From: a virus
IMG/VR virus record: IMGVR_UViG_3300030419_007196
Coordinates: 60,865-124,864 of that record
Length of the DNA stretch: 64,000 nt
Reading direction: 5' to 3' (one strand)
Part shown: one piece after another, positions 684 to 64,000 of the stretch
How the letters are laid out: every line of letters begins with the position of its first letter
How positions within the stretch are numbered: the stretch's first letter is position 1
Notes under the pieces: generated by a model
What the model was told of the DNA's origin: nothing
Databases searched by the model: none
What the model saw: the letters and a program-made list of their open reading frames with translations, nothing else
Position numbers and translations under genes: made by a program

Positions 684-1117
684 TTACTCGCCTGTGCGGC
701 GGCATAAAAGATTCCGATGGACATTCCAACACCGGCTATAAAGCCACCAACAAACCATAACTTAGTATAGTCTGGTTTTTGTGAATTTTTAAGGGCGGTG
801 TGTAATCTTTTAACCTCGCCATCTTTTATTCTCATAAGCTCATTAAACTTTTTCTTGTTTGTGTCGCGATCGATGACAATAAGTCTTTTTTCAAAATTAC
901 ATTCGGCTTTAATCTTTTTAACTGAATAGTCCATATTCAACTCGCAGATTTTAACAGCACTTTCTCTTTTTGCTGCAATAGTCGCCTCTGCCTTCTTGTC
1001 TAACAGGATGCCATCAAAGGGTGCCTTTTGACCCTTTTTTATTGCCGCTATTTTACCATTAGCAAAACAAAAAACTGGCATAAAAGTTATTAGTAAGATA
1101 ATTGCTGTGGTTTTCAT
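680..1117 (-). CDS. Secreted or membrane-anchored protein, possible inner spanin-like lysis protein
   Basis: 145 residues. Residues 1-19 form a signal peptide (two basic-side residues, a hydrophobic stretch ending CFANG), residues 20-115 are charged and mostly helical, and residues 119-140 (about) form a hydrophobic glycine-rich membrane segment near the C-terminus. The motif KGQKAPFDGILLD follows the signal peptide directly. I recall similar APFDG-LL motifs in unassigned phage proteins near holins, so a spanin-like or lysis-accessory role is inferred. It overlaps both neighbours by 4 nt within a membrane-protein cluster with 1114-1521 and 1521-1715. The family identification is from memory and not secure. 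Confidence 0.65.
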   Translation of the reverse strand: MKTTAIILLITFMPVFCFANGKIAAIKKGQKAPFDGILLDKKAEATIAAKRESAVKICELNMDYSVKKIKAECNFEKRLIVIDRDTNKKKFNELMRIKDGEVKRLHTALKNSQKPDYTKLWFVGGFIAGVGMSIGIFYAAAQASK

Positions 1118-1521
1118 TCTTCAACCTCAACGATCTCCAAACCAAACTCATCAGCTAAAACGTGCAAGCGCAAGTCTTCAGGCATCTCGATAATTTCTTT
1201 GATGCGCTTCTTTTCTTCCCGTTTAATTTTTTTGCCTTGCGCTTTACGCTCTTCCTCTACCGCAGTAACAACTACACTAAAGTCCTCTTGAGCTTTTTTG
1301 ATCTTCTTAACTTCTTCTTCATGGGCGTTATTTACAATTTTAAGCTCTTCTTTGCCTTGCTTTATCTTATCGTGAAACATCTCTTGATAAAGATATTTTG
1401 CTCTCTTCTTAGCAAATCTAGTAAGAATAAAGCCCACGACTAAAATCACACCAGCCCACCAGTGTGTTTTAGTCCAAATCCAAATTTTGTTTAAAATATG
1501 TTTAGCTGTTAGCCAAGTCAT
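1114..1521 (-). CDS. Membrane protein with long coiled coil (lysis cassette, Rz-like topology)
   Basis: 135 residues. One transmembrane segment lies at about residues 20-37 (WWAGVILVVGFILT core), flanked by aromatic residues and followed by Arg/Lys. Residues 40-115 are strongly charged with heptad-like spacing and rich in Lys and Glu, predicting a long coiled coil. This N-terminal anchor plus helical domain resembles Rz-type inner-membrane spanins. The start overlaps the stop of the 64-residue holin-like gene by one base (TAATG). The C-terminus is acidic (EIVEVEE). Position between a holin-like and a signal-peptide protein supports lysis, but no enzymatic endolysin is visible in this window. 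Confidence 0.65.
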   Translation of the reverse strand: MTWLTAKHILNKIWIWTKTHWWAGVILVVGFILTRFAKKRAKYLYQEMFHDKIKQGKEELKIVNNAHEEEVKKIKKAQEDFSVVVTAVEEERKAQGKKIKREEKKRIKEIIEMPEDLRLHVLADEFGLEIVEVEE

Positions 1522-1811: not shown

Positions 1812-4800
1812 ATTGATTAACAAATGCATATCCGTCATCTGTTTTAGAGATTTCAATAGTCATATCGACAATATCTTTTAAACTCTCTATGTGAGTAATT
1901 AGTAAAGTAACATCAAAATATCCCTTTACAAGATCCAAGATTCGAACAAAACCTTCCATATTTTCAGCGTCTAAAGCAGTCCCCGGCTCATCAAGAATAA
2001 ACAGGTTGCTCTTGGGCATATTACTTACATTCAACAGCGCAATTCTAATAGCTATAGCAGCTAAAGTTTTCTCTGCCCCAGATCCATTTTCCAAAGGTCG
2101 GGGGTCATGTTTAGGATGCTTAATCTGAATGTCAAGCTTATTATCGTTGTTTTCAAAAAATACTTGAAAGTCCACCACATTAGAAAGAACTTTTGCGATT
2201 TCATCGTTAATCAGCGGCAGCGCCCTTTTAATGACATCGAAAGCAATTCCGTTGCTATGCATACACGTCAGAAATAAATGATGTGCTGAATACTCAGCGC
2301 TCAACCTATCTCGCTCCTTCCTCAAGTGCTCTAAATTTTCTAGTTTTTGTTCTAGAGCGCCATGTGTTCCAATCAAAGAATACAAACACTCGTTGCATTC
2401 ACCAATTTTCTTTTGCCTCTCTTCAACTTCAGCTTTTTTAGACTCTAATTCTGAATAAAGCTTTTCTGTATTCTCTAAAAGCTCTTTGTTTTCTTCATAG
2501 TAACGAATCTTTTCCGTCAACTCTTGTATTAGTGAAGTACTCTTTACTAAGCTACCCGACATTCTCTCATGTTGAAATTTTAAACTCATCAAGAGAGATT
2601 TTTCATCCCTCCCCTTGCTTGAAAGTTTATTATAGTTTTCTATTCTAGATCTAATCTTTCTAACATCAAACCCGCCTAATTCACGATTTTTAAAGCCTAG
2701 TTGGTCTTCTAAAGTTTTTATTAATTCTGTTTGTTTGCTGATTTCTTTTTCAGCCTTCAGAGCGCCGTCCATGTATTTGTGTATTGGACAGTGTTCGCTA
2801 CACGGAACATCGTGTAAGACGCGAGTTTGTTTATTATAGTTATCAAGATCCTTTTCAGCATGACCTTTTTGCTGTGTTAGTTTAGCAATCTCTTTCTCAA
2901 TCTCACCAACTCGGCTAAGTTCACTATCAAGAGTGTCGATGTCGATCATCGCTAAAAGTTTTTCGCTCTTTTTAAGAAAGTTTTCCTTTTCACCAATTTG
3001 TTGTAGAAGGTCCTCTATTTTTTTAATAAGCTTATCTTCATGGGCCTCTTGTTCAAGTAATTGCTGTCTAATATCATTAATGTCGATTCTTTCATCTGGA
3101 AGTTCGGATAAATTTGCCTCCAAGTCAGTTATTTCTTTCTGAAGTGTGCCTAGCTCTTCTTTCAAATCAGCACATTCATTTTTCTTCTTCGCAACATCAG
3201 CGCCGGCTTCAAAAATTTCTTTTTTAACCCTCTTAATGTCCTCATCATAATCTATGTCCTTGACCCGCTTTAGAACACCTCTTAATTCTGATACCTCTTC
3301 TTTTGCTAATTTAAATTTTCTCTCAAAGAATTCAAGATCTAAGAATTTAGCCAAAATTTCTTTGCGCCTAGTTGAACCTTCGTTAATAAAGTTCATAGCG
3401 CCCATTTGCGAGGCCATAGAGGTGGTTAGGAAGTCCTCTAAGCTTCCAAAGACATTCCGTATCGCCTTGTCGGTTCCGCCGCGCTCAGTCTGGTTTAAAG
3501 AGCCTTTCTCGTCAGACACCTGATCTACAAAATCGAAGTCCGCTTGAGTTCTCGCCTCATTCGTAGTCTTACCCTTAAGTTTCTTAACATACTTCTCCGA
3601 TTTCCTAGAAATCGTGTAAGTCTTATTATTTGCCTCAATCTCCACCACGCCAGAGCCTTGGTCCTTATTTTGGTTGATAATGTTGTAAGTCTTTCGAATA
3701 TTTTTAGAAGTATTATTATAGATTGTGTAGAGCAGTGAATCAATGATGCTAGATTTACCACTAAAGTTTTTTCCAAAGATTCCCACAGTTCCAGCAAGTT
3801 TAGTAAAATCGACAGAATTGCCTTCTCCGTAGTTGAATAGATTGTCCCAGCCGAACTTCTTAATTTTCCAATGAACGTTCCTAGAAACGTCTTCACTTTC
3901 TTCGACAACCTTATTATATCTTGAATTAAGAGCGTAGACTTCATCCAAAGTTTCCTCAGATGGATTAAAGTCCATCAAGTACTCCTTAATTAGCTCTTGT
4001 TGAGTCTTTTCGTCTCTCAGATTTTCAAACAATTCTGCGTCAATTTTACCTTCAACAGATAGGTCGTTTGCACCATGTCGACTCAAGAAAGTAATTGATT
4101 CTGGCTTAAACCTATGCTTCGCGATCTTTACTGCTCTTCGAAGTTTTTCTAGTGGAATGTTAGAATTTGAAACAAGTCTCAACCTTGCCCCATGCTGACA
4201 TTCGAATTTGTTGGGAATCCTGCCCGTTTTTGTAAGGTTGATTGTGACAAATGGCTTTGGGTTATTAAAATTTATCTTCCTTCTTTCGAAATCTGTCTTA
4301 CTTTTAATGTCCCAAATGTATATCCCCTTGTCGTTGGTTTCGCCAAAGTTTTGTTGTATTGTTGAGCCTGCATAGGCGATGGTGCCTTCCTTGTTGAGAT
4401 CTTGTGTCTTGTGGATGTCTCCTAAAAAAGCATAATCAAAATCATCAAAAATTGAAATGTCGTGCTCGCCATGTTCCATAACAAAACCGATATCTGTTCT
4501 AGAATATTTAACTGCGCCATGATAAAGGCCAATATTAATCTTTTCTGGCTTTGTTGGCTGAACCCAATTGTCCTCGTCAAAGACAGACAGAACATTAAGA
4601 CAAAAATCTTTATCTAGATGGGTTTCGCCTGCATTTTTTAACAAATAAAGACTTGGATGATCCAAGGCTTCTACAATAGGAGTAATAGCATCTTGGCGAT
4701 AAGAGTTGCGCAGGTTACCATCATGATTACCCAGAATGACGTAAGTTGGAGCAATGTTTGCCAAGTTCTTCAAAAAATCTGAACACAGTTCAACGAACTC

Positions 4801-14220: not shown

Positions 14221-15295
14221 TTGTACTAGCCCTCCTCATGTTAGAATTTGCAGCATTAATTGCGGAAGAGTCAACATCTATATTATGTACATGCGGCGGT
14301 ACCCCAGAAACATCATACAGGTCAACACACTTGGGATAACAATCACTTTGTGCCGGCTGTACAACAAAATTTATTACACGATGCATGTGATTGACTTTTG
14401 AATTTTGTGGGTTTACAGCCAATATTGCGTATCCGTTACCGTTAGTGTCTAAAACATATTTATGATTGTGGCCGGCATTATAAGATGTTTCCCCCTGTAT
14501 ATTTTTTAGTGGCGACGGTTTTACTAATTTGGTTTTTTTGCCTGACTCGGACTTTAAATCTTCAAATGGAAATAATATTTCGTCATTCTCCACCACAATA
14601 GTTGATTGAATTGAATAATCTGCGTTGTTTGACAGCCCAATAAGTATCGGGGCGTTATTTTGTTCTATAAAATCGATCTCAAATTCTTGAGCGGTTGCAA
14701 TATTGCGAACAACTTGACAATTGAACATGCTTGATCTCAAGTCAGTTATGGTGTTTCTAACCATGGCGATAAATCCGCTAGAGTCGCCATAAGAGGCGGG
14801 ATCTTCAGATGGTGGCACCTGTATAAACGAGATTGTCAAAACACTAGCGGGATCGGCAAAAGTAATGTTTAGTTTTGCTTTATTGTTGTCCAACAAGACT
14901 ATCTTGTTTATCTGATAGTTAAAATCAACCAATCTTGAGTTGCTAGAAAAAAGGGCATCAGAAGATGCAGATAACGTGGCCGTGTCAATATTTGTCTCTA
15001 ACACATTTTTTAAATCATCAATACTTACAATATCAAAGTCGTCAACAACGTTTAAAACTTCAATATTTGAAGATGTTTTAAAATAAGAAAAGATAGAAGA
15101 AAATATTTTTGATTTTAATTCTTGTTCATCCAAAGAAAGTTGGCCACTAGTTCTATTTGTAGCGGTTGTGATATAAAAGCTGACTCCTAAAATAGTCTTA
15201 TATAAGATCGATCTATCATTAATAACGCTTGTTGATATGCGGATTGGAGTCCCATCAATAAAAATCTTACTATCTAATTGTTTAAACATGCTCAT
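14186..15295 (-). CDS. Tail protein with three HxH metal-binding motifs
   Basis: 369 residues. Residues 1-260 are a beta-rich region of unknown fold. The C-terminal third has three HxH pairs: H276-H278 (GHNHKY), H303-H305 (NHMHRV) and H335-H337 (PHVHNI), with a VLDTNGNGYAI linker and a Cys pair in DCYPKCVDLYD. HxH motifs line metal sites in trimeric phage fibres such as T4 gp37 and gp12, so a metal-clamped trimer or hub is plausible. It overlaps both neighbours (4 and 35 nt). A role in tail attachment is inferred from motif and place only. Confidence 0.68.
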   Translation of the reverse strand: MSMFKQLDSKIFIDGTPIRISTSVINDRSILYKTILGVSFYITTATNRTSGQLSLDEQELKSKIFSSIFSYFKTSSNIEVLNVVDDFDIVSIDDLKNVLETNIDTATLSASSDALFSSNSRLVDFNYQINKIVLLDNNKAKLNITFADPASVLTISFIQVPPSEDPASYGDSSGFIAMVRNTITDLRSSMFNCQVVRNIATAQEFEIDFIEQNNAPILIGLSNNADYSIQSTIVVENDEILFPFEDLKSESGKKTKLVKPSPLKNIQGETSYNAGHNHKYVLDTNGNGYAILAVNPQNSKVNHMHRVINFVVQPAQSDCYPKCVDLYDVSGVPPHVHNIDVDSSAINAANSNMRRASTNENIELQQSLY

Positions 15296-16065
15296 TCTTT
15301 ACATTCATCCTTTGGAACTTCAATTTCTAACTTCTTCAATTCATCACTATAATTTATATCCAAAACTTCATCCGTGTCAACCGATATATTAAAAAAGTAC
15401 TCTACATGTTCTGAGGACAAAGGCTCATCTTCATCTACAAACTCAAGCTTTTTTAAGCTCTGCATGTCTCCTGAAAATTGAAAAACCTCTAAAATAAAAT
15501 TTTCTTTATCGTCAAAAGCATTTTCTTCCAGTACTGACAGTTTCAGATCATCAGAGGTCCTTTTAATGTAGACTCTGCTTTTCTTTCCGTCCTCTTCAAT
15601 ATAAATTTTATATTCACAAAAAATATTTAATTGAGGAATCTTATCATGAATATAGTCGTCTAAAGTTGCCACCTTGCCGGCCTTCTCCAATTCTATTGGG
15701 AATTGTTTAATTGAGCCGGTAAACTCACCCTCTTGTGAATATATTCTCCAAGCCGGCTTGTTTTGTTGTGTATAATCATAGCCCCCCAACTCAAAATATT
15801 TTGGATATTCTAAATCGCCTTTTTTCTGTGGGAAGGCTACAGAACTATCCCACGTCACTTGCTCTTGAGTTATCGGAACATTTTTAATCCGCTTTTGTGC
15901 GTTGTTTTGGGATTCAGTAATGTACGCGTGCTTGCTGTCGTAAATTACCTCGTTATCATAAAAGGAATATGAATGAGGCTTAAACTTGCCCTTGGAGAGC
16001 TTTTCTCTCCCCTTTTCGGTCATAACCAAATCAAACGTTTCTTCTTTTTTATTAATAAACGTCAT
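15292..16065 (-). CDS. Virion protein sharing an N-terminal module with 8890-9807
   Basis: 257 residues, strongly acidic in the C-terminal half. The first 40 residues hold DLVMTEKGREKLSKGKFKPH then SFYDNEVIYD, the same plan as the 305-residue protein at 8890-9807; the rest differs. A segment KNVPITQEQVTWDSSVAFPQ follows. No enzyme motif. It overlaps neighbours by 1 and 4 nt, indicating one operon with the surrounding tail genes. Probably an assembly or baseplate component using a common N-terminal docking module. Confidence 0.7.
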   Translation of the reverse strand: MTFINKKEETFDLVMTEKGREKLSKGKFKPHSYSFYDNEVIYDSKHAYITESQNNAQKRIKNVPITQEQVTWDSSVAFPQKKGDLEYPKYFELGGYDYTQQNKPAWRIYSQEGEFTGSIKQFPIELEKAGKVATLDDYIHDKIPQLNIFCEYKIYIEEDGKKSRVYIKRTSDDLKLSVLEENAFDDKENFILEVFQFSGDMQSLKKLEFVDEDEPLSSEHVEYFFNISVDTDEVLDINYSDELKKLEIEVPKDECKE

Positions 16066-18080
16066 TATTCATCTTCCCTGCAATACACTTTGGCCGATAT
16101 CTGGCTTAAAGGTAAAATTGTACACTGGTCATATGGCCAGTTGTAAGACCAATCATAATCTAAATTTTTGTCATATTCTTGCCCAGTTTTCTTTTTAGTG
16201 TACACATCATAATTAGTTTCAGCCCTATACTTCGCTTTAAATGTTTGTGCACGAATTGTCTTACCTTCAAATTTAAAATCTGATCCTAAAACCTGTTCGA
16301 TTGGCACCGAAATGGTCTGAATTTGTGGCACCGATGTTGTCAGGCTCCCAGTTAAATTACCCTGCCAAAGTGCCAGCCTTTGATCTCGATTTAAGTTCAA
16401 AGAAAATTGGAATACTGCTGCGAAGTACGGAGCGATAGATTTTCTATTTAAAGATATTTGTCCGCTAGCAATTGTCAACTCGCCGGCCCGGGCCGACTCT
16501 CTAATCGACATAAGCCAGTCTAATTCTGGTGGAAACACATATTTTTCCATGGCTAATATTATATCATCAATAAAATCTGCCCCTTCGAATGTAGAATTTT
16601 CTCTATTAAGAGTTATTGAGTCTAGTTGTGTGTCGGTAAAGTATCTGAATCTTAGTTGGTTGGTTTTTTCTAAAAAGAAAAGACGGTTTAAGACACGGGC
16701 TTCATCAAGCATTATTGGTTCAGCTTTGCAATCTTTGTCATTTATGTATGGTATAACAACTACTGACTCTTCTAGGGGCTTGGTTTCTACGATATCACCA
16801 ATTTTTTGTTTGCCTTCAAAACCAAATAATTTCGCAGCCGAAATGTTTCCATCATTAAAACTTACCCTGTCTGTAATGTTTGGATTACCGAGAGGATCGT
16901 CCTCCGTTAAAATTCTAAGGTATATACCCTTGTTACTTTCATATTTTGGAACGTAAGAAGAGACCGTTGCAACGCTTGGCACATCACTTGAATAAGTGCC
17001 GGATAAAGCGGTAATAGTATAAGAAGATGAGGCGGCGTCCAGCAAGGCTGTTACGTTTTCTCCGTTTGTTGAAACAAACGGGTTTCCGTCCTTAGTTGAT
17101 CCAAAGATTAAATTATGCCTCATATCCATCGGAGTTACATTAGTAAATTCAGCGCCGGTGTCGGCACCATATGTACCGACGCCTTTGTTGTGCATAGAAT
17201 AGCTAGCGCTTGCTAGATACTCTTCAAAGCTCAATTCTTCTAGGGCGTCTGACGCCGGCTGGTATTCTATTTTTAACAATCTTCTATCTGGTACATTTAA
17301 TTTTGATCTTAGCATAGGGTTAGATGAAGTTACCTCAAAGCCCTTGAAGTCTGTTGAACCTTGGTTAAAAACATCCACGGTGTGTTTGCCTAGGCCGCCA
17401 TAAGGTAGTTGTGGATACCATGGCCACGCTCCTATAAAATCAAAATTAGTGGTTGGCATGTAATCATTATCTATAGCAACCCACATAACAACATTACGAA
17501 TTTTGTTATTGCTTCCCAGAACACGCTCACTAATTTTAAATTTACCTGTTACTGGGTCTGGCTTTTTAGTAGACTTAATTATACTTCTTTTAACTCCGTA
17601 AAAGTTTTCTATTTCACAAAAATAATTTTGCATAGCTAAAGAAGAAGCTGGCGAGTAGCCCTTTGTTTTTATTTCTGTATAAGACGCCGTTGTGTTTGTT
17701 GCATAAATTGTATCGAACTCATATACAAAATTCGGCAGCTTGCTAGAGTCCCAAAGAGCATTAACCGGTACATAATCAGACGAAACAAAGTTTCCTGATA
17801 CTGTAGGGACATTCGAAGCGCTATATGCGTTTGGATAACTTCTAGTTGGGTTTGTTCTTACCGCGTAACTTGTGTTTAAGCCAAGCAGGTGTGAGTTATA
17901 CATTAAACGACTGCCAAGGGCCGGCACCGATTGTGAATTCTGAAAATTGGTGTAAATTACAGAGCCGCTTATATCTTCATACCATTTCTTCAAAACAGTA
18001 GTTGATCTTGTTTGCCAATAAAAATCTTTGTACGGCAAAAATTGTAACGCAGAATGACACTCAAATTCTAATTTCTTCAC
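16065..18080 (-). CDS. Large virion structural protein, unknown fold
   Basis: 671 residues, rich in aromatic residues, Ser and Asn, without membrane segments. The start region has SALQFLPYKDFYWQTRST; around residues 560-600 the run ARAGELTIASGQISLNRKSI leads to a beta-rich end with many Tyr and Trp (YDWSYNWPYDQ). No known domain is recognised. It follows the 2148-residue LamG gene after 13 nt and shares 1 nt with the next gene, so it belongs to the same tail or appendage run and may bind or chaperone that long protein. Confidence 0.65.
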   Translation of the reverse strand: MKKLEFECHSALQFLPYKDFYWQTRSTTVLKKWYEDISGSVIYTNFQNSQSVPALGSRLMYNSHLLGLNTSYAVRTNPTRSYPNAYSASNVPTVSGNFVSSDYVPVNALWDSSKLPNFVYEFDTIYATNTTASYTEIKTKGYSPASSLAMQNYFCEIENFYGVKRSIIKSTKKPDPVTGKFKISERVLGSNNKIRNVVMWVAIDNDYMPTTNFDFIGAWPWYPQLPYGGLGKHTVDVFNQGSTDFKGFEVTSSNPMLRSKLNVPDRRLLKIEYQPASDALEELSFEEYLASASYSMHNKGVGTYGADTGAEFTNVTPMDMRHNLIFGSTKDGNPFVSTNGENVTALLDAASSSYTITALSGTYSSDVPSVATVSSYVPKYESNKGIYLRILTEDDPLGNPNITDRVSFNDGNISAAKLFGFEGKQKIGDIVETKPLEESVVVIPYINDKDCKAEPIMLDEARVLNRLFFLEKTNQLRFRYFTDTQLDSITLNRENSTFEGADFIDDIILAMEKYVFPPELDWLMSIRESARAGELTIASGQISLNRKSIAPYFAAVFQFSLNLNRDQRLALWQGNLTGSLTTSVPQIQTISVPIEQVLGSDFKFEGKTIRAQTFKAKYRAETNYDVYTKKKTGQEYDKNLDYDWSYNWPYDQCTILPLSQISAKVYCREDE

Positions 18081-18093
18081 TTATACACCTACC

Positions 18094-21000
18094 TCAAAAC
18101 TTATCAATCTGTCTATGAATATCTTTCAATTCAAAAATTTCTTCTGTATAGCACGCCTCGCCCAACAAGCTCTTTCCCGAAGAGGGGTGGCCAAACAAGG
18201 TGAAGGAGCTTTCTACGTCTTCACCCTTTAAATAATTATCAACTGTATTCTCTCTTCTGTACTCTACAATCGCGCCCTTTGAAGGATTGTCTATTGCATT
18301 AATTGTAACAGTTTCATCAAAATATCTAAATGGTTTTCTATCATTAACAAAATCTGGACTAACTGAATCTGGCCGATTTGCAAAATTAATCTTATAGCCT
18401 AAAGACAGTTGAGCGAAAGTAGCGATCTCAAACGGCCCAGTTGAAATGTTTGCAAAGTGTTTAAACGCCTCATTATGGTTGATTGCCATCAATTCGCCAT
18501 CATGGGTTGTTATTGTCACCCCAAAGTTTTTCTCAATTTCGAAAGTTTCAACTGGCCATGAGGAGAATAAACAATTTAAATATTCGCCACTTATACCTTC
18601 ATAAGGCTGGCCTAGCGAATTGTTGACCAAGGCGATTTTTCTAACAGCGGTTCTCTGATCAAAGCCAACCTCTCGATCGTATTGCGTTAGTGTTTGTAAT
18701 ATTTTTTGGCGCCTCGGATAAATATACTCACCAAAATCAAAGTACTTTAGTTCAAAATTGCTTCTTTCTCTAACATTTTCGTCAAAAATGCAAATGTATC
18801 TATGGTTAGAACTTATATCTAAAATTTTCGTTTTATATTCATTAGGTAGTGCTCTAAAATTAGTCGAACCACTAGTAAAATACTCTGACAATCTTGGATA
18901 TGAAATCTCATAATTTGTAGCATGAAGTGTATCGTCGCTCAAATTTTTGACTATAGCCGTATTTAACAAGCCCTTAGAAAATATTGGCGCTGTTTCGATT
19001 CTTACTGTCCCTTCGTCTTCTCTAGTCTCCGATATTTCTACAGGGATAGAATTTCTATATGTGCTGTTTTTAAGGACTGGCTGGACATGTCGCAATCTAG
19101 CTGCGCCTAGTGAGTGTTTATATGGCCCACTAGAGTTTAAGAAATACATATGAAGTTTTTTGCCTTCGGCTATACCTGCTGTAATATTGGGGTTTGTTGC
19201 CGACCCACTTGTCATGCCATCAATTTCATAACCAGACGCGCCAACGGTAACATCCCTGCCCACAACAATATTTGTGCCATGAAAATCTATGCGTTGAGAG
19301 CCAAACGGAGTTGCTGTGACAACCTCTTCGCTATTTGGAATTGTAATGCTGGCCTCTTCATCATAATAAGAAGCAGTTAAAGGCGCGTAATCTAGAATAT
19401 CAGTCGCTATGGATGAAAAGTGAGAATTCACATATGGTGCATTATTATAGTCGCCTAGGCGAATAATGTTTGTTGCCCTGAACCATCTTTGATCGTAATT
19501 ATTTTGTGAGTTCCTTGTTATGTATGCACTATCGTATTCAACAACATATGACTGTAATTCATCTGTTGTGCGGCGGCGGTCAGCGACCTCCAGCCTCAAG
19601 TGAGGATTTGGATTTCCAGAGTATATTGCGGTGCCAGCCCCTTGACCGATAGAACGATAACTATGTCCATCATTAGCCAGCGGCGTTGAATAAGCTTTTC
19701 TTAAAGCCCTTTTGATATTTAAATTTTTATAATTTAAATTCTGTTGTGGCGAAGCTTGCTCGTTCTCAAGATCATACCTATCTCTAAAAATAGCGCGGTC
19801 GACTGCACGAATCTCTGAGGTACTCGACGTGTTTTCAACCCTACTAATTGCCTTTCTATCATATGCTGCCAAGCCAGATATTTCTTCAACCATTACAGTC
19901 TTGGCTGCAGAGTAAGAAAAAATATTGCCGCTGACAGCAAGTGTTGATATGTCACGATCACTTGGAGTAATTCCAAATATTTCACCGGATGTTCCATCCC
20001 AGTTAAAGCCAGATTTATATTTTGTAATATAGCTTCTCTTAACTTCGTGCACTAAGTTCGTTGGTATGCTAGAGTTTACCTTGAAGGAGCCTGCATTATC
20101 TGATTTTATCTGCGGGCTTTGAATGCGGATATCCGGATTTGCGCCGGCCGAGCCAACCATAATGTTTACAGAATATTTTTCTTTCCTATCAGCTTCATCT
20201 TTTAAAAGTTGAGAATCAAGAGTTTTTATACCGACAGAAGACACAACTGACGGCTTTTGCTGGTATACCTCAAAGCCGATCCCAGAATTAAATGGCCTGT
20301 TTGAAGAAGATAAAATCTGAATTCCCATAGGACCCAAAAGCGTATCAGCCGTATATTCTCCATAGGCTTCAGAGCTAGAATCTCCTACACTTGCTAATGC
20401 GCGGTGAAATCTTTTGCCGTATAGGGCAGTATCCGCGTGATCCTCAATCAAAGGGGCGGAAGAGCTTTGTATGGTTACCAAAATCCCATCTGCACTTGTA
20501 TCTTGAAATCTTCTTGTTTGTAGGAAAATATCATCACTATTAGAAGTGTTTGTACTGAGCGTTTCACCTTTTATGGCGCGAGCCTGACCACGAACAGCAT
20601 ATGGCGTCGATGCGGCCATGGCATTTCTAGTTTTAATTATTATATCAAGCTGAGTACGCAACGTATCGACATCTTTGGTGCCAACAATAATAGGGCTGCC
20701 GTTTCTGTCTTTTTCAGCCCGGTCTTTCATATAAACATATCTTTTAACAAAATTGCCATCTGAATTTGGTAGTCTTGTTACCTCTTTTGACCTCTCAAGT
20801 GATCGATTTGCCTCGTCAAAACCCTCTTCATCCACATAGTTGCCGCCACCCTTATAGCTTAATGTTGGGTCGCCCTTTGTTGTTAAGGTTGTTGCTGATT
20901 TGATGGCCGCTTTAGGATAGTCTGTTGAAACTGTAAATTCAGAATCATCTTGAGTTGCACCAATAGTTAAATCTGGACGGTTATTAACGTTTGTTAGTGT

Positions 21001-60971: not shown

Positions 60972-61254
60972 AATGTAGCCTTAAATCTTGTATAATTTCT
61001 AGCCTTTTTCGTTTGTATATAGAAATATTCAAACTTGCGGCCAATTTTCTAGCTTCATTATAACTCATTTCGTCCAAACTTGCAAGTAATGTATCTTTTT
61101 TTTCTTTAGCAAGCCTTTCTTCTTCTTTTTTTATAATGGCTTGTTGTCTTGCATGGTTTTTTTCTTCAACAATTTTGTTAATTTTTTTCAACTTCTCTGA
61201 AGTTTTTTGAGTCGACCTTTTTATTCTCAAACTGTTATTTCTGGTCTTCTTCAT
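60946..61254 (-). CDS. Small SAP-like, helical protein
   Basis: 102 residues. Residues 1-55 are very basic and helical (RNNSLRIKRSTQKTSEKLKK). Residues about 62-96, EMSYNEARKLAASLNISIYK then RLEIIQDLRLHY, follow the SAP helix-turn-helix spacing (helix, Ala-rich turn, second helix), a module that binds DNA. It overlaps the nuclease by 26 nt and the metallopeptidase by 20 nt. A DNA-binding partner for the Cas4-like nuclease is inferred. Confidence 0.6.
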   Translation of the reverse strand: MKKTRNNSLRIKRSTQKTSEKLKKINKIVEEKNHARQQAIIKKEEERLAKEKKDTLLASLDEMSYNEARKLAASLNISIYKRKRLEIIQDLRLHYEQLETTH

Positions 61255-61924
61255 CTATCATCCCCATCAGCAATTTTATTTTTTCAAAAAGAACAGGATT
61301 ATTCTTTTTCATCTTGGCGTGACTGTGGTAATCTATCAAATACTTTTCAAACCCCACTCCATAATATTCCCTTAATGAAGTGGCTGAATATTCATTTAGG
61401 AAAAGGCCGCCTAAAAAGTTAAACAGCTTAACGCCAACTTTATTGTACAAATAGTTGTCTATTTTTTTACTGTATTGAAAATCAGTACTTAAATCTCCCG
61501 GCGGATCAAGCTTATTGGCGGCTAAAAGATCATGTAAGACTTTCCTCTTCTTTATAAATTCTGCTTGCAAGCGCCCGTCACCGTAAATTGTGTCGCCATA
61601 TTGTTTTTCTATGTGGTGAGACATTTCATGAATTATGTCATCAACCGCATCCATGATGCCCTCTTGTTTGTTGTTTATGAATAATCTTTTGTTGATATAA
61701 TACGCGTTGAATGGAAGATTGCTACCAGCGGAACCCATATCTCTTATTTTTATTACCACCAATCCTTTGAATATTTTTCTAGGTAATATTGATTCAACTT
61801 TTTTTAAAACCTTGGAAATATCAAAATTTATTTCATCTTCAACTTTTACAGGAACGCCATATAATTTATAGCCGCCAAGCTTGGCTTTTACCATCTTCTG
61901 TTTTTCTAAGATATAATCCCTCAT
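61235..61924 (-). CDS. HExxH zinc metallopeptidase-like protein
   Basis: 229 residues. The active-site HEMSH at 99-103 (IIHEMSHHIEK) gives the zinc-binding HExxH of gluzincin-like peptidases; a third ligand is not obvious. The flanking region FNAYYINKRLFINNKQEGIM and the C-terminal NEYSATSLREYYGVGFEKYL resemble small phage proteins of this kind. It could process virion or host proteins. The stop overlaps the SAP-like gene by 20 nt and the start overlaps PhoH by 4 nt. Confidence 0.72.
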   Translation of the reverse strand: MRDYILEKQKMVKAKLGGYKLYGVPVKVEDEINFDISKVLKKVESILPRKIFKGLVVIKIRDMGSAGSNLPFNAYYINKRLFINNKQEGIMDAVDDIIHEMSHHIEKQYGDTIYGDGRLQAEFIKKRKVLHDLLAANKLDPPGDLSTDFQYSKKIDNYLYNKVGVKLFNFLGGLFLNEYSATSLREYYGVGFEKYLIDYHSHAKMKKNNPVLFEKIKLLMGMIDEEDQK

Positions 61925-63255
61925 AATACTTTTGCTGCCAAAGTCGCCACCTTTGAGCGTTCACCTCTGGTTAAAGTAACATGGCCGGCTAAATCATGCT
62001 CTTTGAATTTTTCAACTGCATGAGTTAAACCATTTGTCGTCTCGTCGATATAAACATTATCAATTTGTTCAATATCGCCCATCAAAACAATCTTTGAGTT
62101 ATCCCCCACACGAGTAACAACCGTTTTAAGTTCGTGGGCAGTCATGTTCTGAATTTCGTCAACCACAATAAAGGCATTATTGATGCTTCTACCACGGATG
62201 TAGGTGAGTGCTTCAATCTCAATAATACCCTCGCTAACGTATTCTTTTAAACTATCTTTGCCGTTTCCTAAAAGATACTGTAAATTATCATTAATCGGGG
62301 CTAGCCAAGGAGACATTTTCTCCTCTAAGCTGCCGGGAAGATAGCCGATGTCCTTACCCATAGGTTGTATCGGTCTAGAGACGATAAGGCGGTTGTAACG
62401 CGCTTGTTTTGGAATTACGGTGTGCCAGTCGTCTACAGCCTGACAAAGGCCAGCAAACAGGGCTATCATCGTTTTGCCGGTACCCGCTGGTCCGACAAGA
62501 GTTACAACCTTAACGTCCGGATCCATCAAAAGATTCAAAGCAAAATCCTGCTCTTTATTTCTGGACTTTATATTCCATTTCTTATTTGAATAATCTAATA
62601 CTTTGCCCAGATGTTTGTTGTAATCATAAAATCTGGCTAGTGCTGTTTTCTTTTCATTACCCACAGAAACGAGCAGGACGAACTGATTTGGAAAAAGTTT
62701 AACCTCATCTTTGTCTAGGAAGATGTTTTCGCCGGCATAAAACTGATCAATTATTTGATCGTCAACTAAATGTTTAGTTACTCCCGTAAAAATTTCTGAT
62801 CTACTTTTGACTACCTTCTCAGTTTCGTAGTCTTCCCCTAGAATGTTAAGAGCGTCACACTTAACACGCATATTGATGTCTCGGGACACAACAACAACTT
62901 TTCTTCTAGGATTATCTTTCTTTTCACTTAGCGCTGTTGCCAAGATCTGGTTGTCGGGGTCTTTGTCATCGAATCCCGGCGGGAGCAGGCCTAACTCAAA
63001 ACTTCTTGCTCTTAATAGGCCCGCTCCACGCCGAATTCTCACTCCCTTGGATAAGTTACCCTTTGCACGCAATTCGTCCAATATACGAATTATACGACGG
63101 GCATTAGAACCTACACTATCTTGACGTTTTTTGTGTTTATCTATTTCTTCAAGCACTTTAATAGGAACAACAATGTCGTTGTTCCCGAATGAATAAATTG
63201 AATTTGAATCTGTTAAATAAACGTTTGTATCTAAAATGTAAGTTTTCTTAGCCAT
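61921..63255 (-). CDS. phoH: PhoH ATPase with N-terminal PIN nuclease domain
   Basis: 444 residues. A PIN domain (residues 1-130) carries D9 (LDTNVY), E36 (EEID), D101 in DNQILATAL and D126 (SRDINM), the acidic RNase site. The PhoH ATPase follows: Walker A GPAGTGKT at 255-262, SRPIQPMGKDIGYLPGSL at 293-310, and Walker B VVDEIQNMT (364-372). PIN-PhoH proteins (PhoH2 type) are RNA-unwinding ribonucleases found in bacteria and phages; phage PhoH is common but the PIN fusion is less so. It probably remodels RNA in the infected cell. Confidence 0.9.
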   Translation of the reverse strand: MAKKTYILDTNVYLTDSNSIYSFGNNDIVVPIKVLEEIDKHKKRQDSVGSNARRIIRILDELRAKGNLSKGVRIRRGAGLLRARSFELGLLPPGFDDKDPDNQILATALSEKKDNPRRKVVVVSRDINMRVKCDALNILGEDYETEKVVKSRSEIFTGVTKHLVDDQIIDQFYAGENIFLDKDEVKLFPNQFVLLVSVGNEKKTALARFYDYNKHLGKVLDYSNKKWNIKSRNKEQDFALNLLMDPDVKVVTLVGPAGTGKTMIALFAGLCQAVDDWHTVIPKQARYNRLIVSRPIQPMGKDIGYLPGSLEEKMSPWLAPINDNLQYLLGNGKDSLKEYVSEGIIEIEALTYIRGRSINNAFIVVDEIQNMTAHELKTVVTRVGDNSKIVLMGDIEQIDNVYIDETTNGLTHAVEKFKEHDLAGHVTLTRGERSKVATLAAKVL

Positions 63256-63265
63256 AAATTACCCT

Positions 63266-63712
63266 TTACTTAGTTGATGTTACGTCATCTGGCGTATCTA
63301 CTACATCGTTAGCGCCAGCATCGGCTTCTTTGGGTGTAGAACCCGCATCAACATCGACAGGTTTAGTCTTGTCAGAACAGCAGCCAACTTTGCAATCGGC
63401 TTCTTTCTTTCCTGCCTTTACACATTTTTCATAGCAATTTTTGCATTTATCTTCCTTTGACCAATCGCCATAACAAGCTTTCTTGCAATCTTCCTTGGAC
63501 ATATCAGACCCTAAACACCCACTATAACAAGCTTCTTTCTTCTCCTTGTCTGTGAGAGTTGCTGCGTCTGCCAAGTCGGCTGCATCTCCACTTTTATCTG
63601 CGTCTGTGCAAGCTGCGGCGCTTGCGTCCTTGTCAGACTTTGCCTCTTTTTCTCCGCAGGCTGCTGAAAATGCTATAATAATAGCAAATAAAAGCATGGT
63701 TAGATTTCTCAT
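63266..63712 (-). CDS. Cys-rich lipoprotein with two CX3CX9CX3C hairpin modules
   Basis: From ATG 63712 the protein is 148 residues; the AAGGAG site 7 nt upstream fixes this start over the longer frame at 63745. A lipobox LLFAIIIAFSAAC puts the lipidated Cys at 19. Two copies of a helical-hairpin pattern follow: C62-x3-C66-x9-C76-x3-C80 and C93-x3-C97-x9-C107-x3-C111, with extra C90 and C112. The tail is Asp/Ala-rich (DAGSTPKEADAGAND). CX3C pairs of this spacing form alpha-hairpinin-like disulfide folds. Surface attachment or superinfection defence is inferred from lipoprotein nature only. Confidence 0.8.
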   Translation of the reverse strand: MRNLTMLLFAIIIAFSAACGEKEAKSDKDASAAACTDADKSGDAADLADAATLTDKEKKEACYSGCLGSDMSKEDCKKACYGDWSKEDKCKNCYEKCVKAGKKEADCKVGCCSDKTKPVDVDAGSTPKEADAGANDVVDTPDDVTSTK

Positions 63713-63722
63713 TTTATTCTCC

Positions 63723-64000
63723 TTATTCGCTTTCAACGATTTCATCTACCAAACCGAGTTCAAGACATTTTTCTGCCTCAAACCATTTGTCTCTTTTAAG
63801 TATCTCTGTGATTTGTCTAGCACTCATATTTGTGTGCTCTTTATAAATTTTTTTGATTTTGCTCATGATGAGATCTAAATTCTCCATCTCATCCTTCATT
63901 GCCTCATAATTTCCCCACATAGAAGAGCTTAACTGATGAATAAGCATAAATGAATTAGGAAAAATGAATCTTTTCTTAGCAACCACGCTGATTAGAGTGG
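63723..64000 (-). CDS. clpP: ClpP-like protease, 5' end cut by window
   Basis: The frame is open to the window edge, so the start is outside. Visible residues read TLISVVAKKRFIFPNSFMLI then HQLSSSMWGNYEAM, the ClpP region with catalytic His in MLIHQ, then helix SARQITEILKRDKWFEAEKC and LGLVDEIVESE, the usual ClpP end. The catalytic Ser lies in the missing part. ClpP homologues in phages may act on host proteins or as head-maturation-like proteases. It is 10 nt before the lipoprotein start. Confidence 0.85.
   Translation of the reverse strand, partial: TLISVVAKKRFIFPNSFMLIHQLSSSMWGNYEAMKDEMENLDLIMSKIKKIYKEHTNMSARQITEILKRDKWFEAEKCLELGLVDEIVESE

Follow-up and report, generated by a model that had tools for sequence, protein, structure and literature searches.

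A conserved phage lipoprotein family with an optional double cysteine hairpin and a tentative link to murein-cutting enzymes

The 64,000-nucleotide stretch of viral DNA analysed here (the window), taken from a virus record of 124,864 bases, encodes a protein belonging to a real and moderately novel conserved lipoprotein family, seen in phage contigs alone in the present searches and equipped only optionally with a double cysteine hairpin. Judged by comparison of the family sequences, the hairpin is an accessory module, while the lipid anchor and the acidic tail stay. The strongest functional clue for the lipoprotein is its linkage to an SLT transglycosylase gene, and we tentatively suggest that, anchored in the envelope, it may partner or restrain enzymes that cut murein, much as T4 Spackle does.

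The gene lies at window positions 63266..63712 on the minus strand, as do all features of this region given below, and its translation bore out the 148-amino-acid lipoprotein frame with two exactly spaced CX3CX9CX3C units described in the earlier note. The pattern count agreed, since the whole window holds two occurrences of the corresponding DNA pattern and both fall within this gene, against 0.10 matches expected from shuffles, only 1 in 100 of which reached two. The ATG at 63712 was favoured over the longer start given by the ORF finder (63745) because a Shine-Dalgarno (SD) sequence, AAGGAG (63719..63724), sits just before it; an SD-type site precedes the start in all nine hairpin-bearing family genes. 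The signal peptide (residues 1-18; 63659..63712) ends in the lipobox residues S-A-A before C19 (63656..63658), the predicted lipidated cysteine, which is invariant in 9/9 hairpin-bearing members. This S-A-A-C departs from the canonical lipobox consensus, which has [LVI] at -3 (PMC6139136). Weak NCBIfam matches, in the N-terminal part of family members, were to many unrelated lipoproteins, the best (E 8.9e-5, for the protein of locus L102) being to a model not named as a lipoprotein, and were taken as support for a lipoprotein-type N-terminus only. Overall, the assignment of the window protein as a lipoprotein is supported at the level of sequence.

The mature protein begins with an acidic linker of low model confidence (residues 20-61, including C35; 63530..63655; net -5 counting C19), followed by hairpin unit 1 (C62-x3-C66-x9-C76-x3-C80; 63473..63529), a 12-residue link with W84 and C90 conserved in the family alignment (63437..63472), and unit 2 (C93-x3-C97-x9-C107-x3-C111, running into C112; 63377..63436, of which the motif occupies 63380-63436). 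The C-terminal tail (residues 113-148; 63269..63376; net -5) is the disordered Asp/Ala-rich segment noticed earlier, with pLDDT below 50 from residue 115. Besides C19 there are 11 cysteines in total, and the sole CXXC is C90-K-N-C93. The cysteines outside the motifs (C35, C90 and C112), the acidic linker that precedes the hairpins in addition to the tail behind them, a second copy of the gene and the hairpin-less relatives were all absent from the earlier note.

Unit 1 and unit 2 are alike beyond their cysteines at the family level, the observed score being reached by 51 of 20,000 column permutations; alignment of the two units in relatives, on which the earlier note had staked its reading, thus held family-wide. 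In single proteins the likeness gave P values of 0.002 to 0.13 and was weak for some members, such as those of L003 (P=0.13) and L046 (P=0.066). Both units are retained in eight of the nine hairpin-bearing members, and all 10 hairpin cysteines are likewise present in 8/9; the L094 protein keeps the first unit but has lost most of the second. Structure prediction of the trimmed hairpin domain, built on a shallow alignment of nine sequences, yielded four helices (4-16, 22-29, 35-48 and 53-61 in trimmed numbering; 55-67, 73-80, 86-99 and 104-112 in the protein) with pLDDT 82.9 and pTM 0.50, consistent with the helical hairpins envisaged earlier. The full-length model was poor (pLDDT 49.7, with values below 50 at residues 6-53 and from 115) and gave no Z of 2 or more against nine PDB chains. 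For the trimmed model, no PDB or viral fold match at E 0.001 or better was obtained among the families listed; the best VIA-align 2 hit, to a reductase (Z 3.2, 44 aligned residues, 6.0 A rmsd), was taken as chance.

The earlier note had called the hairpins alpha-hairpinin- or CHCH-like. In CHCH (twin CX9C) proteins, the CX9C spacing lies within each helix. The predicted model places the CX3C pairs inside helices and makes the CX9C gap span the loop, and because of this the module is not CHCH-like; the alpha-hairpinin part of the comparison stood, in both cysteine spacing and helix placement. Alpha-hairpinins are described by the motif CX3CX4-20CX3C, a helix-loop-helix fold and tandem modules, a CC directly before or after the motif being an exclusion criterion (PMC11591084). 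The window protein has two such units with n = 9 and, in the prediction, one CX3C per helix of each helix-loop-helix, but its second unit runs into C112 to give precisely such a CC.

The profile search of the hairpin proteins proposed earlier came back empty, with nothing significant in Pfam, PHROGs or NCBIfam. For the hairpin-less relatives PHROGs did give matches (best E 0.00024), but to entries with no assigned function and mainly over signal peptide and low-complexity tail, and these were set aside. Neither a sequence nor a fold match to known inhibitors was found in the Pfam, PHROGs, NCBIfam and PDB searches. A literature search for phage cysteine-rich lipoproteins with an alpha-helical hairpin or twin CX3C found no such phage lipoprotein, and one joining phage lipoprotein, superinfection exclusion and lysozyme inhibitor found nothing.

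Among the named phages, plasmids, bacterial genomes and IMG/VR contigs searched, relatives were found in IMG/VR contigs only. There were none in 50,697 phage records or 72,556 plasmids, and the delta-proteobacterial link suggested earlier gained no support from two scans of bacterial genomes, which were based on a few short peptide patterns that could miss distant relatives. Hairpin-bearing relatives occur on seven other IMG/VR contigs, making nine genes when the two on the own scaffold are counted. The 22 distinct family proteins comprise eight with both hairpins, one with a single hairpin and 13 with none, and in these 13 both the lipid anchor and the acidic tail rich in Asp and Ala persist; the earlier view of the hairpins as the essence of the protein therefore gave way to that of an accessory module. 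The C-terminal end DVTPQ[GD] is common to 11 of the 22; in several loci tRNA genes are near it, and it may be constrained at the DNA level. The family thus provides a natural set of variants with, half with and without the hairpins for testing what the module contributes.

Both kinds of protein occupy the same genomic places. The hairpin gene begins 1 nt after the SLT gene in L008, L089, L090, L092 and L094, lies upstream of thyX and SLT in L003 and in the second copy, and precedes phoH in L046 and the window; hairpin-less lipoproteins are found beside SLT (L100-L105, L107, L120, L122, L124), upstream of thyX (L109, L110) and before phoH (L036, L037, L039, L040). A profile of the hairpin proteins, searched against 19 records, matched in six. 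Within model positions 1-56 it picked up some hairpin-less relatives, with E 2.6e-8 and 5.3e-8 for the L104 and L050/L102 records and 0.0017 to 0.003 for the L036, L039 and L040 records; the matched part is mostly signal and low-complexity linker. For the most divergent proteins, those of L109, L110, L120, L122 and L124, we infer homology from position and architecture. In the SLT tree, hairpin-bearing and hairpin-less kinds each fall in more than one clade, a spread that would fit a module lost or exchanged several times. In L009-L011, the three nearest phoH relatives, the phoH slot holds no lipoprotein, and the records examined gave no profile match. The slot before phoH is a lipoprotein hot spot: among 80 phoH loci (L009-L088), reduced to 78 by dropping two with less than 400 nt upstream, 20 have a lipoprotein ORF with a preceding SD there, and these ORFs are of several types that seem unrelated to one another. 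A trypsin-like lipoprotein beside SLT (L003 5145-5909; PF13365, E 2.6e-18, a domain match from L003 alone) and its look-alikes before phoH (L060 5181-5987 and L063 1072-1887) thereby sit where the hairpin family does, in both of its places.

In the window, the gene is flanked upstream, 10 nt away, by a clpP-like gene that the contig end truncates to its 3' part (63723..63998; PF00574, E 1.3e-18) and downstream, again after 10 nt, by a gene for a PIN-PhoH protein (61921..63255; PF02562, E 6e-51, and PF13638, E 2.5e-30). Matches to T4-type portal, major head and tail-sheath proteins supported the phage origin assumed earlier and make the contig T4-like; a T4-type terminase is also present, the nearest named one, 42% identical, being that of a Flavobacterium phage. 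By these matches, the virus is taken to be a T4-like myovirus. An SD core precedes 53 of the 110 coding-strand genes of 100 aa or more, versus 20.0 expected from shuffles. As a rule, SD use is linked with non-Bacteroidota hosts, and this frequency argues mildly against a Bacteroidota host. Several other features of the contig were recorded in passing. Judged by eye and only from the starts of the sequences, a long run of genes at window 34889-60213 resembles nucleotide-sugar, epimerase and glycosyltransferase genes and suggests phage-encoded remodelling of surface polysaccharide. The protein of window 61235-61924 has a sub-threshold PF07737 match (E 0.0077) and contains HEMSH, which we take to be a zinc-metallopeptidase-type motif. 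The own contig also holds a GroEL-like ORF, again by eye (3142-4710), and a tmRNA gene with the tag ANDNVAFDYALAA (15236-15594).

The second copy lies on the same scaffold (contig 18011-18457), is 82-85% identical to the window copy, and neighbours tRNA genes, thyX (by tblastn matches) and an SLT transglycosylase gene (contig 16309-16773). The segment that carries it is bounded by two 10-N scaffold gaps (16038-16047 and 20282-20291), and the presence of both copies in one genome rests on this scaffolding; gene order in relatives agrees with the placement. Comparison of the two copies gave dN 0.112, dS 1.083 and dN/dS of about 0.10, in a table where some dS values were saturated (reported as -1), and both are therefore constrained proteins under purifying selection. 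A recent in-genome duplication was rejected in view of the synonymous divergence of about 1.08.

The linkage to SLT was examined at 45 loci (L095-L139), five weak matches (L140-L144) of the 50 listed having been left out. A family lipoprotein lies directly downstream of SLT in 15 of them, with gaps of -25 to +1 nt, and upstream of thyX in three; the remaining 27 have no family lipoprotein within the flank examined. The mature lipoproteins carry net charges of -6 to -22 (22/22), and the SLT proteins +5 to +29 (34/34 examined). Six cysteines are invariant in all 46 SLT sequences, a count made on 34 rows (33 of the 45 loci and the own copy) to which 12 loci (duplicates, truncated or with no called start) were then added. 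This invariance suggests an oxidising compartment. One of the six lies inside a short hydrophobic N-terminal segment, where a signal-anchor enzyme that is switched through disulfide exchange, the type represented by P1 Lyz, would be expected to have one; the SLT is possibly such an enzyme under thiol control, or the cysteine is simply a buried structural one.

On the tentatively favoured reading, the exported lipoprotein would sit in the infected cell's outer membrane, where its acidic tail, together with the rigid hairpin head where present, would bind and restrain a basic murein-cutting enzyme. That enzyme would be either the SLT of the phage itself, held back until the cell lyses, or the one with which a superinfecting phage enters. 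The action would resemble that of Spackle but be lipid-anchored; the core function would not lie in the hairpins, whose contribution would be a binding face resistant to proteases. This reading is preferred because of the SLT linkage (15/45 plus 3), the basic SLT facing an acidic lipoprotein, the SLT cysteines and the Spackle precedent; conservation of the hairpin cysteines and the low dN/dS also speak for it. Charge complementarity is weak evidence, since lysozymes are commonly basic and lipoprotein tails commonly acidic. Against it stand the 27 of 45 SLT loci that have no lipoprotein, the window copy being beside phoH and not SLT, the absence of hairpins from 13 of 22 members and of any known-inhibitor match, and the SLT proteins themselves, some of whose N-termini have no basic residues and whose named homologues, all weak, carry the annotation of lytic tail proteins. 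No Spackle chain was among the matches in PDB sequence searches, which remote homology could escape. The family makes it possible to test whether an envelope lipoprotein of a phage is linked to an enzyme that cuts murein. A stricter version, in which the acidic lipoprotein with its stapled double hairpin would hold a disulfide-switched signal-anchor SLT at the outer membrane and gate its activation, forming a redox-linked pair for lysis timing or exclusion, is very improbable; if true, it would be a form of lysis control not described in the literature examined.

Other roles were weighed against restraint of an enzyme. The main alternative, itself somewhat doubtful but close in probability to the favoured reading, is superinfection exclusion of the Llp/Cor type, in which a lipoprotein at the periplasmic face of the outer membrane jams a phage receptor. 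The earlier note had suggested a receptor block from the outer leaflet; the best precedent for such a block, T5 Llp, a small phage lipoprotein with an intramolecular disulfide, binds FhuA from the periplasmic side and not the outer leaflet (PMC9586334), and because it has this disulfide, such phage lipoproteins are not unheard of. The place of our gene among clpP, phoH, thyX, tRNA and polymerase-type genes, not structural ones, and the unrelated lipoproteins in the slot before phoH (20/78 loci), as for exchangeable exclusion genes, would suit this role. However, no receptor-binding gene was recognised adjoining it in the loci read, while T5 llp adjoins pb5 (PMC9586334); the long acidic tails, the many more cysteines and the lack of a match in PDB sequence searches also differ, and the tight SLT linkage would be left unexplained. 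Two alternative genomic places, occurrence in some relatives but not others, widely differing lengths and the other lipoproteins found in that slot could mark an exchangeable lipoprotein for surface conversion (moron), which would shield or mask the infected cell and would have neither an enzyme nor a receptor as its specific partner. This is unlikely, as purifying selection and the DVTPQ[GD] end in 11/22 suggest a specific contact.

That the protein is an o-spanin, the outer-membrane subunit of the lysis machinery, is quite unlikely, even though it has a lipoprotein signal, is encoded beside a lytic enzyme with an endolysin bearing a peptidoglycan-binding domain in the same region, and has disordered mature tails that in the family go down to 51 aa. 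A spanin role is less likely because of the cysteine number and the lack of a regular partner: the excerpted o-spanin survey gives at most 4 periplasmic cysteines (PMC6139136), against 11 besides C19 here, and no i-spanin-like partner gene consistently adjoins; two copies on one scaffold would also be odd. Window 1114-1521 and L003 3201-3440 each encode a candidate with a TM segment and coiled coil, and for neither was a spanin match significant. The former overlaps another small membrane-protein gene (680-1117) near the terminase, has weak Rz-like matches (E about 0.2), and with it could be the real spanin region. Least probable is a toxin-like or redox-active hairpin protein, as also raised in the earlier note, at which a Pfam Hefutoxin match in the second copy (E 0.25) and a kappa-KTx chain (E 0.094-0.2) faintly hint; none of these matches reaches significance and all track the spacing of the cysteines, the CXXC is a lone one, and the hairpins are dispensable in the family.

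Among known systems, the acidic lipoprotein LytA of Bacillus subtilis (NCBIfam NF058647) is encoded with a basic murein hydrolase. It is like the present family in being an acidic lipoprotein, but the match reached only 15.4-17.8 bits against a cut-off of 110 and covered the N-terminal part only. Plant alpha-hairpinins share the CX3CXnCX3C motif, the helix-loop-helix and the tandem modules, but are plant antimicrobial peptides with no detectable homology, and the phage unit 2 is followed by CC. T5 Llp and Cor are likewise small phage lipoproteins with a disulfide, for which the present protein has the potential, but differ in gene context and give no sequence match; receptor binding, as by Llp, would be a candidate action of the present protein. 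O-spanins such as T4 PseT.2 are also phage outer-membrane lipoproteins with cysteines, but the present protein has far more of these and no i-spanin was recognised beside it, and the hairpin module is not described for spanins in the excerpted survey (PMC6139136). Finally, T4 Spackle (gp61.3) is shorter (75 aa mature), has one disulfide, no tandem hairpins or acidic tails, and no lipid anchor described in the excerpted paper (PMC7677548). It nonetheless resembles our protein as a small helical envelope protein with disulfide bonding from a T4-type phage, and it binds, in the periplasm, the basic patch around the cleft of the gp5 lysozyme (PMC7677548).
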